Assembly: GCF_005405405.1 (NCBI RefSeq)
Contig: NZ_BJDZ01000016.1
Coordinates: forward strand, 1 to 63,097
Length of the DNA stretch: 63,097 bases
Origin: Lactiplantibacillus plajomi
Lineage (GTDB): Bacteria > Bacillota > Bacilli > Lactobacillales > Lactobacillaceae
Reading direction: 5' to 3'
Position 1 is the stretch's first letter, and each line of letters begins with the position of its first letter. A program made the position numbers and the translations under genes. The notes beneath the pieces are model-generated. The model ran no database searches. It had not been told where the DNA came from and worked only from the letters and a program-made list of their open reading frames with translations. Shown piece after piece: positions 48,772 through 53,105 of the stretch.

Positions 48772-51336
48772 TTAAAAGTCAGTGTCCTCATTACCGGAAC
48801 CCAACGCGGTCAGCGCCGCTTTCAGCGTTTCACCGTGGGCAATCACCGTTCCGGTAGCGTGACTCGGTTCGCCGGTGACTTCATCCGCATCGTAAATTTG
48901 CAGCTGATTATACGGGAACGTATTGGCTTGGACGTACACCGTATTCAAGGCACTAATATCCGGATAGTCGTACATGACCTTACTCAACGGTTCGCCCAAC
49001 TTAACGTGCAGGAGCAACCGGGTCACACTGGAGCCGACCGCCTTACTGATCAAGGCCATCGTGGCAATGCTCATCGGTTCGATCGTGGCTAATTGTAACT
49101 GGTCGTCGACAATCGTCAACCGTACCGTATAAAGTCCCGGTACACCGAAAGCTAGCACCCGCCGCTTGATTTCGGCACTTAACGCCTTAATCGCTTGGTT
49201 TTCCGCCTTATCGCGAATCGGAAAGACTTGCAACGAACCACGGACGTTCGTGCGTAAGTTATTGCCCGCGATAATTTCACTGACACCGAACACCGCCACG
49301 TCCATGCCGTCCGAAATCACTTCAACGGCCGGTGAATCGTTAGTCTTAATTTGTTCCCGCGGCAAGTTGTTATTGATTTGAACCACCGAGTAACCATCCG
49401 CGCTTAACTGCTGGCCTAACCGGTAATCGTGATAGGTCGTAAAAATCAACTCCGGTTTTTCAATCGCCAAAATATTCAAAATATCGGAGTACTGCTTGGG
49501 TTCAACGTAGCGCTTCGTCGCTAACCGCGGCGTCATTGCAACGCTGTTCGGATTGGCGTTGATCAAAATCGGTTGGTAGTCGGCCTTACGCAAATAAAAG
49601 AGCAGCTGTGAAACGAGGTAATCGTTCCCATGATTAGTCCCAATCCGGTTCGCTCCCGTCCCGATGACGACGACTGGACGGCCGGCTTGGGGCTGACTTT
49701 CGTTATCAAATTCGTAGGTTGAATAGTACGTATTCGTCTGTTCGGTAAACTCGCCGGCGGTCGGTTCAACTTCCTTGAAGGTCGCGTGAATTTCATTTTC
49801 CAACGCAAACTGATGCACCTTTTTCACGTCGGTATGCCAAGCGTCCGCCGCGTCTTCGTCAGTGAAGCCAAAGTACTTGGCCCGCCCCAGCGCGTGCACG
49901 TCAAACGGACGCGCCCACAGCGCCTTTTCAATTTCGATAATGTGCTGCAACTTATAAAAGTAGAACGCGTCGATTTTGGTTAATTCCGCCAGTTCATCAA
50001 TCTGGTACCCCCGGTTCAGCGCTTCCAGTAAGACCAACATCCGCCCGGCTTGCGGGTGGATCAGCCGTTGAATCAATTCACCTTCAGAATAATTTTGCGG
50101 CCGGTTGGCGATGACGTGGTAGCGCGATTCATCAGTGGAGCGTAAACCTTTCAGCAGGGCTTCCTCGGTTGAACGGCCGATTCCAATGACCGAGCCGGTC
50201 GATTCGGTGACCGTATCGAGTTGGTGACTGACCTTTTTTAACACGTTGAACGGCCAGACCGGAATGCGGCACACGATGTGGTCGAGTACCGGTTCGATCA
50301 ACGCCGTTTGCTTACGGTAGTCACTCGGCAACTTTAATTCGGCTAAGCTAATGTCTGCCATTAAGTTAGCCACGACCCGTGCCAGCGGATAGCCGGTCGC
50401 ACGGGCGGCCAAGGCCATCGCCCGGTCAAAGTACGGTGTCACTTTGATCACGTAATAGTGTTGGGTATTCGGGTCCAGGGCAAACTGCACGTGGCAGCTA
50501 CCGTTAATTCGCAAGCGTCGCATGATTTTCAACGTTGCAGCTCGAAATTGTTGGTACTCCTGGTCAGTGATCGTTTGGGTCGGCGCGAAAACGATCGAAT
50601 CAGCCGAATGAATCCCAACCGGGTCAAAGTTCTCCATCCCGCTAATCAGCAGCGCCATATCCTTCTTATCACGGACGCCCACAAACTCGAGTTCCTTACA
50701 GCCAACGATACTCTGCTCGACGATACACTGCTTGGTGGCAGAAACTTTAAAGCCCATTGCCAACGCCCGTGCCAGGTCCTCCTGGTCTTTGCAAAGTTGC
50801 CGGCTGGCCTCGATGCGGGGCGCCACCGACTTCACAATCACTGGAAATCCGATTGAACGGACGACCGCCAGTGCCTCGACGTCACTCGCCACCACTTGCG
50901 ACGCAATCACCGGTTCGCCGATGGCTTTCAAGCGGTTGCTCATTAACGCCGGATTGACGATCATGTCGATGATTTCCGAATCCCATTGCAGAAGCCGGAC
51001 GTGATTATTTTTTAAGACGTTGGTTCGAATCAGCCCCTGTATCAGGCTGACGGCGTGTAAGCCACCTAACGAGGGAATTAAGCCGTCCGGCTGTTCAGCT
51101 TCGATCACCCGCGACAATCCCGCGACCGTTAGTGGTTCAACGTAGACCCGGTCAGCAAAGTTATTTTCGGCCGCGACCGAGTACGCGTTATTATCGACTA
51201 GCACGACGGCAATCCCTAATTTATGGATGGCCGCCCCGATCTGGATGACGGCCGCGTCGTGTTGGCCTTCGCGACCAATGTCGTTATGACCGGCACCAAT
51301 GATGAGAATTTTTTGTAAGCCCTGATTATTCACCAC
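48772..51336 (-). CDS. CarB-like protein, degenerate carbamoyl-phosphate synthase large subunit
   Basis: 854 residues, against about 1060 for a pyrimidine CarB. The first half keeps the fold (GREGQHDAAVIQIG, PSLGG, MENFDPVGIHSADSIVFAPTQTI), but the synthetase residues are gone. E-x-N-P-R-x-S-R reads K-V-T-P-Y-F-D-R (298-305). The Gly-rich ATP loop (TLGGxGGG) reads VAPRIEASRQ. The residue equivalent to R169 is Lys. In the second half the N-terminal part of the ATP-grasp domain is missing (about 110 residues), and the metal motif reads TIEPMSIAT. The allosteric MGS domain is absent; the protein ends after GTVIAHGETLKAALTALGSG. The frame is open throughout. The start is GTG 51336, overlapping carA. 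Confidence 0.85.
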   Translation of the reverse strand: MVNNQGLQKILIIGAGHNDIGREGQHDAAVIQIGAAIHKLGIAVVLVDNNAYSVAAENNFADRVYVEPLTVAGLSRVIEAEQPDGLIPSLGGLHAVSLIQGLIRTNVLKNNHVRLLQWDSEIIDMIVNPALMSNRLKAIGEPVIASQVVASDVEALAVVRSIGFPVIVKSVAPRIEASRQLCKDQEDLARALAMGFKVSATKQCIVEQSIVGCKELEFVGVRDKKDMALLISGMENFDPVGIHSADSIVFAPTQTITDQEYQQFRAATLKIMRRLRINGSCHVQFALDPNTQHYYVIKVTPYFDRAMALAARATGYPLARVVANLMADISLAELKLPSDYRKQTALIEPVLDHIVCRIPVWPFNVLKKVSHQLDTVTESTGSVIGIGRSTEEALLKGLRSTDESRYHVIANRPQNYSEGELIQRLIHPQAGRMLVLLEALNRGYQIDELAELTKIDAFYFYKLQHIIEIEKALWARPFDVHALGRAKYFGFTDEDAADAWHTDVKKVHQFALENEIHATFKEVEPTAGEFTEQTNTYYSTYEFDNESQPQAGRPVVVIGTGANRIGTNHGNDYLVSQLLFYLRKADYQPILINANPNSVAMTPRLATKRYVEPKQYSDILNILAIEKPELIFTTYHDYRLGQQLSADGYSVVQINNNLPREQIKTNDSPAVEVISDGMDVAVFGVSEIIAGNNLRTNVRGSLQVFPIRDKAENQAIKALSAEIKRRVLAFGVPGLYTVRLTIVDDQLQLATIEPMSIATMALISKAVGSSVTRLLLHVKLGEPLSKVMYDYPDISALNTVYVQANTFPYNQLQIYDADEVTGEPSHATGTVIAHGETLKAALTALGSGNEDTDF

Positions 51337-52412
51337 ATCGGCCCCCTTGCTTGTTGCATCGATTCTACAAATTCATTAAAAATGTCGCGCGTCTCGGTCG
51401 GACCGGGCGCCCCGTCCGGGAAAAACTGGACCGAGAAGGCCGGAAAATCCCGTAACCGCAGGCCTTGAATCGTCCCGTCGATCAAGTCGACAAAGGTGGT
51501 GATCATTTTATCACGGTCGACACTGTCCGGATTAACCGCAAAGCCCTGCCCCTGTGACGCATAAATAATTTGATTGGTAATGACTTCGCGAATCGGGTGG
51601 TTCGCACCGTGGTGTTCGGGCGCCAGCTTAATAATCGTCGCGCCGTTGGCCATTGCGAATAATTCGTGTCCCAACCCGATGGCAAATAACGGCACCCGTT
51701 TTTGAATCGCTTGGATCATCGTCAGTACGCTTTCCGGTAAGTCCTGCGGTTTGCCGGGACCGGTCGAGAGAATCACACCGTCCGGATCCAAGTTAATAAT
51801 TTCGTCGGTCGTCGCGGTATACGGTAAGACCGTGACGTTGCAAGCCCGTTTACTAAGCTCACGTAAGATCCCGTGTTTGAGCCCAAAGTCGACCACGACC
51901 ACGTTTAAACCGGTCCCCGGGTTAGGAAACGGCTTGGGCGTCGCCACGGCAGCAACTTGCCGGTTGGTTAACACGGTCGCGCCCAGTTGATCAAAGGCGT
52001 GGGCATCCGCCACGTCCACGATACTGGCCTTCATCGGTCCACTCGCCCGGAGCTGTTTCGCTAAGTGGCGAGTGTCAATGTGGCTGATTCCGGGAATGTT
52101 TTGCTGCTTTAAGTACTGATCCAGTGACCAGCGCCGCTGCCGGTTAGTCGAAATACTTGCGACATCGCGGACAACCACGCCCTTAACGGTCGGAAGGATC
52201 GATTCATAACTATCATGATTAATACCGTAACTGCCGATCGTCGGTTGGGTGAATGCAATAATTTGGTTATGATAAATTTGATTCGTAATAATTTCTTGAT
52301 AGCCCGTCATACTCGTATTAAACACGATTTCACCAGTTGAAACCGCTGGTGAGCCAAAGCCTTCACCTAGGTAGGCACTGCCGTCTTCAAGAATCAAATA
52401 GCGGTCTGCCAT
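51330..52412 (-). CDS. CarA-like protein, inactive glutaminase subunit
   Basis: 360 residues, normal length for CarA. The N-terminal CPSase_sm_chain domain is well conserved (YLILEDGSAYLGEGFG, FNTSMTGYQEIITN, GIDTRxL-type ISHIDTRHLAKQLR). The C-terminal class I amidotransferase has lost its triad. The nucleophile Cys of GICLGHQ is Gly246 (AIGLGHE). The His and Glu of the HPE motif are Phe331 and Asp333 (VQFFPDG). The SQNHG motif reads SQGQG. The fold is intact but glutamine cannot be hydrolysed by this mechanism. It is co-transcribed between pyrR and carB. Confidence 0.88.
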   Translation of the reverse strand: MADRYLILEDGSAYLGEGFGSPAVSTGEIVFNTSMTGYQEIITNQIYHNQIIAFTQPTIGSYGINHDSYESILPTVKGVVVRDVASISTNRQRRWSLDQYLKQQNIPGISHIDTRHLAKQLRASGPMKASIVDVADAHAFDQLGATVLTNRQVAAVATPKPFPNPGTGLNVVVVDFGLKHGILRELSKRACNVTVLPYTATTDEIINLDPDGVILSTGPGKPQDLPESVLTMIQAIQKRVPLFAIGLGHELFAMANGATIIKLAPEHHGANHPIREVITNQIIYASQGQGFAVNPDSVDRDKMITTFVDLIDGTIQGLRLRDFPAFSVQFFPDGAPGPTETRDIFNEFVESMQQARGPMW

Positions 52413-52445
52413 TGCGATCCCTTCTCACTTAATTGACTTATAAAA

Positions 52446-52967: not shown

Positions 52968-53021
52968 AATTGCCTCCTAAGTATTTTGGTCTGCATGCGA
53001 GTCACCAACATTACAAAGAAA

Positions 53022-53105
53022 GACGGCCGGAAAATACATCCCGGCCGTCAACGAAAAGTTATTGTTAACAGGTTGCCTTTCAGTCTCGCAGGGCCGGATT
53101 AAAGG
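53022..53105 (-). promoter_or_regulatory. PyrR-dependent transcription attenuator
   Basis: Read on the minus strand. An anti-antiterminator stem CCTTT...AAAGG (53105-53076) carries the loop CCTGCGAG, matching the PyrR-binding consensus CCNGNGAG. An antiterminator can form between CCGGCC (53097-53092) and GGCCGG, which is part of the left arm of the terminator. The terminator GACGGCCGG/CCGGCCGTC (53049-53022) is followed by TTTCTTT. The three mutually exclusive structures of a classic pyr leader are thus present between rluD and pyrR. Confidence 0.82.

Follow-up and report, generated by a model that had tools for sequence, protein, structure and literature searches.

Contig NZ_BJDZ01000016.1 of Lactiplantibacillus plajomi (positions 1–63,097, hereafter the window) carries on its minus strand the genes pyrR2, carA' and carB', which encode a PyrR regulator and two proteins related to the small and large subunits of carbamoyl phosphate synthetase (CPS). 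The three genes span positions 48772–52967, where a previous reading of the letters alone (the sequence-only reading) had placed them. Comparison with functional enzymes confirms the claim of that reading that both enzyme genes are catalytically empty, i.e., that the pair is a predicted pseudoenzyme, since CarA' lacks Cys269 and His353, and CarB' lacks R129, E299, N301, R303 and its second half. Judging from the proteins compared, this dead pair is far more widespread than the window alone could tell, and the chemistry is lost in most genera of lactobacilli looked at. Moreover, the pair is kept by purifying selection, which implies that its proteins serve for something other than carbamoyl phosphate synthesis; the kept pair probably does a second job. 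The best joint explanation, to which we give somewhat better than even chances, is that non-catalytic CPS complexes have arisen repeatedly and are tied to PyrR or to uracil uptake.

Loss of the glutaminase and synthetase sites

The gene carA' (51330–52412, minus strand) encodes a dead CPS small subunit of 360 amino acids. In an end-to-end alignment with Escherichia coli CarA, Cys269 is replaced by Gly (within AIGLGHE), Gln273 by Glu, His353 by Phe and Glu355 by Asp, and the Cys–His–Glu triad required of a glutamine-dependent CPS is absent. CarA' exceeds the NCBIfam cut-offs for CPS small subunits (457 versus 221 bits and 365 versus 307 bits) and, therefore, automatic annotation will name it an enzyme. 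Across the family, the dead or real state of CarA proteins was read from alignment columns, because a simple regular expression, which supplied gene orders only, miscalls some real CarA as dead; duplicates identical over the last 300 residues were removed before counting (from 209 to 160 CarA and from 139 to 132 CarB). Gly occupies position 269 in 114 of the 115 distinct dead CarA, Cys being kept in one, and none of the 115 retains His353, a position that drifts among F, S, D, Q, N, E, L and Y. Both Cys269 and His353 are kept in all 45 real CarA of the comparison set. Furthermore, 109 of the 115 dead proteins have lost Gln273, and 87 have lost Asn311. Forty-eight of the dead rows come from loci picked by the Gly motif (L031–L100), where Gly is present by construction, and 66 of the other 67 also have Gly. 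The Gly state does not depend on how the loci were picked in L012–L030, found by CarB patterns, and likewise in the loci of g4, g9, g10, g15, g18, g20, g22, g23, g24, g27, g28, g29, g36, g37, g38 and g40 (genera are given by such codes), reached via rqcH or CarA protein searches; all of those read have Gly. The Cys is found in g34 (L177), where His and both metal-binding Glu residues are lost, which looks like an early stage of decay. The motif HAxDQxxAxV (CarA' residues 136–147, window 51972–52007) is present in all 115 dead CarA but, within the family set, in only 4 of the 45 real ones, and a looser form occurs in pyr-operon CarA of other families. HAxDQLxAxV was rejected as a signature of dead CarA, as real pyr-operon CarA, other families included, carry the motif too.

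The large subunit gene carB' (48772–51336, minus strand) overlaps carA' by 7 nucleotides and encodes 854 amino acids with an altered first ATP-grasp site, a collapsed second half and no C-terminal regulatory domain. In this genome, a real CPS was found solely within a complete pyr operon that lies on a different contig (C15, pyrR1-B-C-Aa-Ab-D-F-E). Compared with E. coli CarB and with this real CarB, CarB' shows the replacements R129 to Pro, R169 to Lys, N283 to His, E299 to Lys, N301 to Thr and R303 to Tyr. It can be aligned to about residue 650, the second ATP-grasp half being unalignable past a pre-ATP-grasp piece, and is about 200 amino acids short; thus, the two complete ATP-grasp sites needed by a glutamine-dependent CPS are missing. 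CarB' scores 573 versus 1027 bits for the CPSaseII_lrg model, and it shares 39% identity with the genome's real CarB over 630 residues.

Among 80 shortened CarB' proteins, the best conserved stretch holds E215, R222, D223, E235, G241, H243, D246 and S247, of which E215, G241, H243, D246 and S247 are present in at least 95%. In E. coli CarB, E215 and H243 are nucleotide-site residues. At position 299, Lys takes the place of Glu in 68 of the 101 CarB that are locus-type or depart otherwise from the standard, a set that includes at least two arginine-type real CarB and one partial real CarB. Large subunits range from 643 to 1067 residues across loci, and the second ATP-grasp site is damaged in every locus-type CarB aligned, as well as in L293 and L294. 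ATP-grasp decay differs in degree between lineages; the g22 locus CarB has a nearly intact first site (RRENHDQENRR) and a dead second one.

Distribution at the old pyr site

A dead CarA with an adjoining CarB-like gene is present in at least one genome read in 35 of the 40 Lactobacillaceae genera. No such arrangement was seen in the stretches fetched from g13, g26, g30, g31 and g32, and in g12, g23 and g34 some genomes have the dead CarA and others only a real one. The site is bordered by rluD upstream in 32 and by rqcH downstream in 25 of the 35 genera. These counts rest on several searches. A scan of named genomes for CarB yielded 19 loci (13 of Lactiplantibacillus, one of an uncultured Lactobacillus metagenome-assembled genome (MAG), four of Pediococcus and one of Weissella oryzae), all with the order rluD-pyrR-carA'-carB'. 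A DNA pattern for the Gly motif was positive in at least 169 of 397 Lactobacillaceae genomes and at least 18 of 40 genera, its backwards control giving zero among the matches listed. Since this pattern is strict, the old site was then examined via rqcH and via CarA matches from 91 genomes, a part of which was fetched among the matches listed. One outcome that the sequence-only reading had named as refuting its proposal, absence of the pair beyond this strain, is clearly contradicted by the 35 genera; a strain artefact was rejected, given that the 13 named Lactiplantibacillus records, the Lactobacillus MAG, the four Pediococcus and W. oryzae share the pair.

Over the 35 genera, pyrR lies directly upstream in 23, pyrR-pyrP in four, pyrP alone in four and neither gene in four. 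The stretches fetched thus place pyrR next to the pair in 27 of the 35 genera.

Genus g16 shows the pair largely in the absence of a real CPS. Among the matches listed, the dead CarA motif occurs in all 24 sampled g16 genomes, and in 22 of these no CarB match goes below E 1e-150; the carA'-carB' pair is present in all five g16 loci read. Strong PyrB is found in 4 of 35 g16 genomes (missing in 31) and strong PyrE in 15 (missing in 20). Likewise, a hand count over the matches listed gives 37 of the 169 pattern-positive genomes without a CarB match below E 1e-150. Four g16 genomes without real CarB have no strong PyrR apart from the one encoded at the site. Two g16 genomes do have a real CarB, 87–88% identical to that of the window genome (G380:C1:852220-855393, with one internal TAG, and G111:C21:46354-49527); such identity in a genus mostly devoid of CPS suggests a transferred pyr operon as the likely source.

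Purifying selection on the dead pair

Among nine genomes of the genus, the median ratio of nonsynonymous to synonymous substitution rates (dN/dS) is 0.017 for carA' (24 of 36 pairs usable) and 0.020 for carB' (4 of 36). Comparators give 0.018 for real carA and 0.027 for real carB (15 of 36 pairs each), 0.039 for pyrR2 (15 of 36), 0.022 for pyrR1 (34 of 36) and 0.022 for rluD (5 of 36). For the closest pair of genomes (dS 0.31 for carA' and 0.43 for carB'), dN/dS is 0.000 and 0.006, respectively. In g16, the values are 0.018–0.021 for carA' (3 of 6 pairs usable) and 0.027 and 0.050 for carB' (2 of 6). Thus, the dead proteins are under purifying selection, with ratios as low as those of the real CPS genes, although dS is saturated for many pairs. 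Moreover, within-genus median identity is 0.947 for CarA' versus 0.907 for real CarA, and none of 20 Lactiplantibacillus-type, Pediococcus and Weissella pairs contains a stop codon. CarB' diverges faster than CarA', its last 200 residues being poorly conserved. Simple pseudogenes were rejected on the basis of dN/dS and conservation.

Origin and probable repeated loss of Cys269

Both subunits belong to the CPS family by descent, as indicated by Pfam and NCBIfam matches, trees and synteny. In g26 and g32 (L111, L112) and in g12 and g13 (L108, L109), rqcH marks the end of real pyr operons, as seen on the downstream side only. In another family, the block lspA-rluD-pyrR-pyrP-B-C-AA-AB-D-F-E-rqcH occupies the same slot with a real CPS (L295), and a second other family shows the rluD side of that block (L296). 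Since a whole pyr block with a real CPS occurs in the same slot elsewhere, the dead pair is most simply the remainder of the original operon, and by inference the working CPS is the second copy. The operon of the window would then be a remnant of the old Lactobacillales pyr operon, still located between lspA-rluD and rqcH; as the comparisons show, PyrAA and PyrAB have turned into a non-catalytic pair here, and the other biosynthetic genes have departed.

In a tree of 98 CarA built without the motif columns, parsimony requires at least three independent Cys-to-Gly changes, and a single origin of all dead CarA was rejected (p = 3e-6 in the approximately unbiased test, p-AU).

Related arrangements were seen at further loci. 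In g23 (L189, genome G022), a pair away from the old site has the order pyrP-carA'-carB'-pyrF-pyrE, with a CarB' of 643 amino acids and a real CPS elsewhere in the genome, a second decay. Outside the family, f2g49 (L293, L294) has a Gly-type CarA and a CarB damaged at both sites within otherwise complete pyr operons at the old site; as no other CarA match is strong in either genome, both species would be expected to be without their own CPS. In f4g43, a genus of another family, four genomes carry Gly-type CarA (L252, L289, L290, L291, L292), one of which, read further, has the order pyrR-pyrB-carA'-carB', and the second motif marks the CarA of L282, from the same genus, as real.

PyrR2 and its leader RNA

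The gene pyrR2 (52446–52967, minus strand) encodes a PyrR of 173 amino acids that scores 277 bits with an NCBIfam PyrR model (cut-off 218), and its phosphoribosyl pyrophosphate (PRPP) motif is complete, as the sequence-only reading held. Upstream lie a PyrR-binding hairpin or anti-antiterminator (53076–53105, minus strand; variant loop GGCCCUGCGAGACU), identified from the Rfam model RF00515, its invariant pairs and loop comparison, and an intrinsic attenuator terminator (53022–53049, minus strand; 53012–53049 with its T-rich tail), identified by a terminator scan and comparison across loci. Hairpin and terminator are conserved in all 15 loci of the genus (14 distinct rows), namely the window, 13 named Lactiplantibacillus records and one MAG, and the PyrR hairpin pairs are invariant. 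The RF00515 match (53015–53109, minus strand) reaches 29.7 bits, short of the gathering score of 54, with E-values of 0.028 in 401 bases and 0.046 genome-wide, and the Rfam scan at the gathering threshold gave no leader match. In the genome ranking of matches to this model, the pyrR2 leader comes fourth, after pyrP (57.7), pyrR1 (53) and the pyrR1-pyrB gap (35.1). A mechanical scan found 2 terminator-like sites versus 6.4 in shuffles, i.e., fewer than expected by chance. Weak taken alone, the Rfam match is complemented by better evidence from comparison, since two terminator pairs change on both sides across the 15 loci. The controls for covariation are mixed: 6 of 500 shuffles match the score, 100 of 500 reach two both-side pairs, and shifting the alignment by +3 columns even raises the score a little (0.111 versus 0.103).

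A GACUG:CGGUC helix between hairpin and terminator, competing with both, is predicted in 11 of 15 rows with a weak consensus (-1.4 kcal/mol). This fold is not formed in the window, L014 or L015, L021 forms another overlapping helix, and two other candidate antiterminator helices counted over the loci display no covariation. A promoter-like TTGACA-17-TAGGCT element (53122–53150, minus strand), seen in the window and 14 relatives, sits inside the end of rluD and, therefore, coding constraint may add to its conservation. TTGACA is followed 17 nucleotides on by a second hexamer in all 15 loci (TAATCT in 12, TAGGCT in 2 including the window, TAGTCT in 1), a pair that the mechanical scan, working under a stricter rule, did not list.

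The loop of the pyrR2 leader is the variant GGCCCNGNGAGACU versus AGUCCNGNGAGGCU in the leader of the same species' pyr operon, a fixed difference; L014 has C in place of the changed G, and a similar variant loop precedes pyrR in g22 (L191). Given this difference, PyrR2 and PyrR1 may read different loops, as if two separate regulator–RNA pairs existed in one species. Thus, what the sequence-only reading called a full attenuator stands as far as the conserved hairpin and terminator are concerned, but its loop is a variant and its Rfam score lies below gathering. The related claim that uridine monophosphate (UMP) attenuates the pair finds support in the PyrR-type leaders of this genus and a few others, and does not extend to the pair in general. 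In the rluD-pyrR gap of g16 (L077-L079, L100), a different GC-rich hairpin takes the attenuator's place by eye; L078 was scanned and gave no Rfam match there up to E 1.

Possible functions of the pair

The explanation favoured here supposes that the pair keeps part of the first ATP-grasp nucleotide-binding face (E215, H243 and neighbours), devoid of the catalytic metal and bicarbonate ligands, and that it might act with the adjoining pyrR or uracil permease gene, perhaps setting pyrimidine uptake or pyr expression. In Lactiplantibacillus, an open PyrR attenuator, presumably at low UMP, would let the pair be produced along with PyrR2. The pair may have a regulatory role with PyrR, and the comparisons made lead us to favour a non-catalytic pair that would bind nucleotides and act as partner to the genes of pyrimidine regulation or uptake.

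According to the sequence-only reading, the two proteins may detect bicarbonate or glutamine as a CPS ligand and, in turn, act back on PyrR or the real CPS. The residues for bicarbonate, metal and glutamine are replaced in the window (R303 and the metal ligands of the carboxyphosphate site) and in most relatives (Gln273 and Asn311, at the frequencies already given), which makes such sensing less likely. Feedback on the real CPS is not the general role either, because g16 keeps the dead CarA motif mostly without real CarB and PyrB. Together, these observations leave the proposal improbable, even though the genus has a real CPS elsewhere (L101) and passages of PMC3582564 tie PyrR2 of L. plantarum to inorganic carbon. 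Continued production of carbamoyl phosphate or of a related product, either by an ammonia-dependent CPS like animal CPS1 or by a half-reaction such as carboxyphosphate formation, would find a precedent in human CPS1, which is active with a Ser-for-Cys glutaminase domain according to PMC4655335, and some room in the nearly intact first site of the g22 CarB. Nevertheless, an ammonia-dependent CPS requires intact synthetase sites, E299, N301, R303 and R129 are gone from the window, the second ATP-grasp half is absent or unrecognisable, and second-site damage recurs in all locus-type CarB aligned and in L293 and L294, all of which renders residual catalysis very improbable.

The notion of two slowly decaying genes held in an rluD/pyrR operon by linkage alone draws on the faster divergence of CarB', with its poorly conserved last 200 residues, and on the very divergent versions of the pair in g10. 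It is barely credible, being already contradicted by dN/dS near 0.02 in the window's genus and 0.02–0.05 in g16, by 20 of 20 pairs free of stops, by a CarA' identity above that of real CarA and by presence in 35 of 40 genera. More weight is due to a new function unrelated to pyrimidines, with pyrR as a fossil neighbour, since the pair is kept in genomes without PyrB, PyrE and CPS, g3 and g6 have no adjoining pyrR, and most genera yielded no PyrR loop at the site. However, pyrR and/or pyrP accompany the pair in 31 of 35 genera, no other pyr gene adjoins it in the stretches fetched save pyrF-pyrE in one g23 locus, and the leader is conserved in Lactiplantibacillus; such a function is unlikely without being negligible.

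The link of a repeatedly derived, non-catalytic complex to PyrR or uracil uptake has to face several observations that weigh against it. In g3, g6, g18 and g38 the pair has neither pyrR nor pyrP adjoining; in g3 and g6, carA' directly follows rluD with no pyrR between. PyrR is encoded elsewhere in the genome in g3, g6 and g38, and none turned up in the single g18 genome, which is 87% complete. At the site itself, the search for a PyrR loop succeeded in g1, g12, g15, g22, g28 and one g5 genome, and 29 of 35 genera showed none under a strict pattern, complemented by Rfam for few loci; UMP regulation as the common thread of the pair, implied by the sequence-only reading, is thereby not supported. 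Neither rluD nor rqcH was seen at the pair in g23 (L189) and g29 (L183). Adjacency to pyrR could be inertia, as pyrR headed the old operon anyway, and conservation of E215 and H243 could be structural. As to repeated derivation, a single origin for the Lactobacillaceae taken alone is rejected at the borderline only (p-AU 0.048; p = 0.097 in the Shimodaira–Hasegawa test, p-SH; p-AU 0.055 in another analysis), backbone support is low (16–67 at several nodes) and L189 shifts position between trees. Finally, dS is saturated for most genome pairs.

A wider proposal, which we advance tentatively and at somewhat less than even chances, is that the CPS of Lactobacillales pyr operons performs a further, non-enzymatic task that persists once its chemistry is gone, the small subunit having been switched off by at least three Cys-to-Gly changes and the pair kept even in bacteria without CPS or de novo pyrimidine synthesis, and that in L. 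plantarum the pair, rather than PyrR2 alone, would underlie the inorganic-carbon phenotype. A pyrR2 deletion in that species reportedly needs arginine and pyrimidine at low CO2.

Surroundings of the locus

The order on the minus strand runs from the leader through pyrR2 and carA' to carB', with lspA and rluD upstream and rqcH downstream. The rluD-type pseudouridine synthase gene (53125–54093, minus strand) is the syntenic left neighbour of the old pyr site and is preceded by an lspA-type gene (54062–54574, minus strand), the syntenic neighbour on the upstream side. The rqcH/fbpA-type gene (45604–47310, plus strand) is the convergent right neighbour, separated by two small open reading frames. 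A weak PyrR-like Rfam match elsewhere in the window (19219–19343, plus strand; 25.1 bits) is probably due to chance. Next to the real pyr operon, an ordinary purine riboswitch (L101, 14992–15090, plus strand; 67.2 bits) lies upstream of a permease-like open reading frame.

Significance and comparison with known systems

In many lactobacilli, some of the genes annotated as carA and carB form a pair unable to make carbamoyl phosphate, and counting this pair as an enzyme, which the scores of CarA' invite, can make metabolic models and auxotrophy predictions wrong. If a conserved non-catalytic role is true, one of the best studied enzymes of biochemistry gains a second function, directly testable in a food-grade species whose neighbouring regulator already has a published CO2-linked role. 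A literature search on titles and passages found no description of a dead carA'-carB' pair in lactobacilli, which is not a claim of its absence from print.

Passages of PMC3582564 describe control of the L. plantarum pyr operon by PyrR1 and PyrR2 in response to pyrimidines and inorganic carbon, and pyrR2 is given as lp_1782 in a passage of PMC7911632. The L. plantarum locus L015 has the same gene order as the window and a PyrR 84% identical to that of the window, which we infer to be lp_1782. In the passages available, accounts of PyrR2 (lp_1782) name the regulator only and not the two dead subunits downstream. Its leader resembles the RF00515 attenuator in the hairpin, the terminator, the position before pyrR and, in most relatives, a predicted competing helix, but differs in its variant loop and a score below gathering. 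The pair itself resembles CarAB or PyrAA-PyrAB (E. coli structures 1bxr and 1cs0) in having both subunits, the gene order and homology that covers CarA entirely and CarB over its first two thirds; unlike E. coli CarAB, it lacks the nucleophile, the His, the metal and bicarbonate residues, the second synthetase half and the C-terminal regulatory domain. In human CPS1, Ser294 replaces the catalytic Cys of the glutaminase domain, according to a passage of PMC4655335. The pair thus shares with vertebrate CPS1, as described there, a CPS glutaminase domain retained minus its nucleophile; however, CPS1 is an active ammonia-dependent enzyme that keeps both ATP-grasp sites, whereas the pair has Gly instead of Ser and a dead synthetase. 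A likeness in kind is offered by the inactive dihydroorotase needed for assembly of Pseudomonas aspartate transcarbamylase (a title cited in PMC6022934), likewise a dead enzyme of the pyrimidine pathway kept for a non-catalytic role, of which the partner is known only for Pseudomonas.

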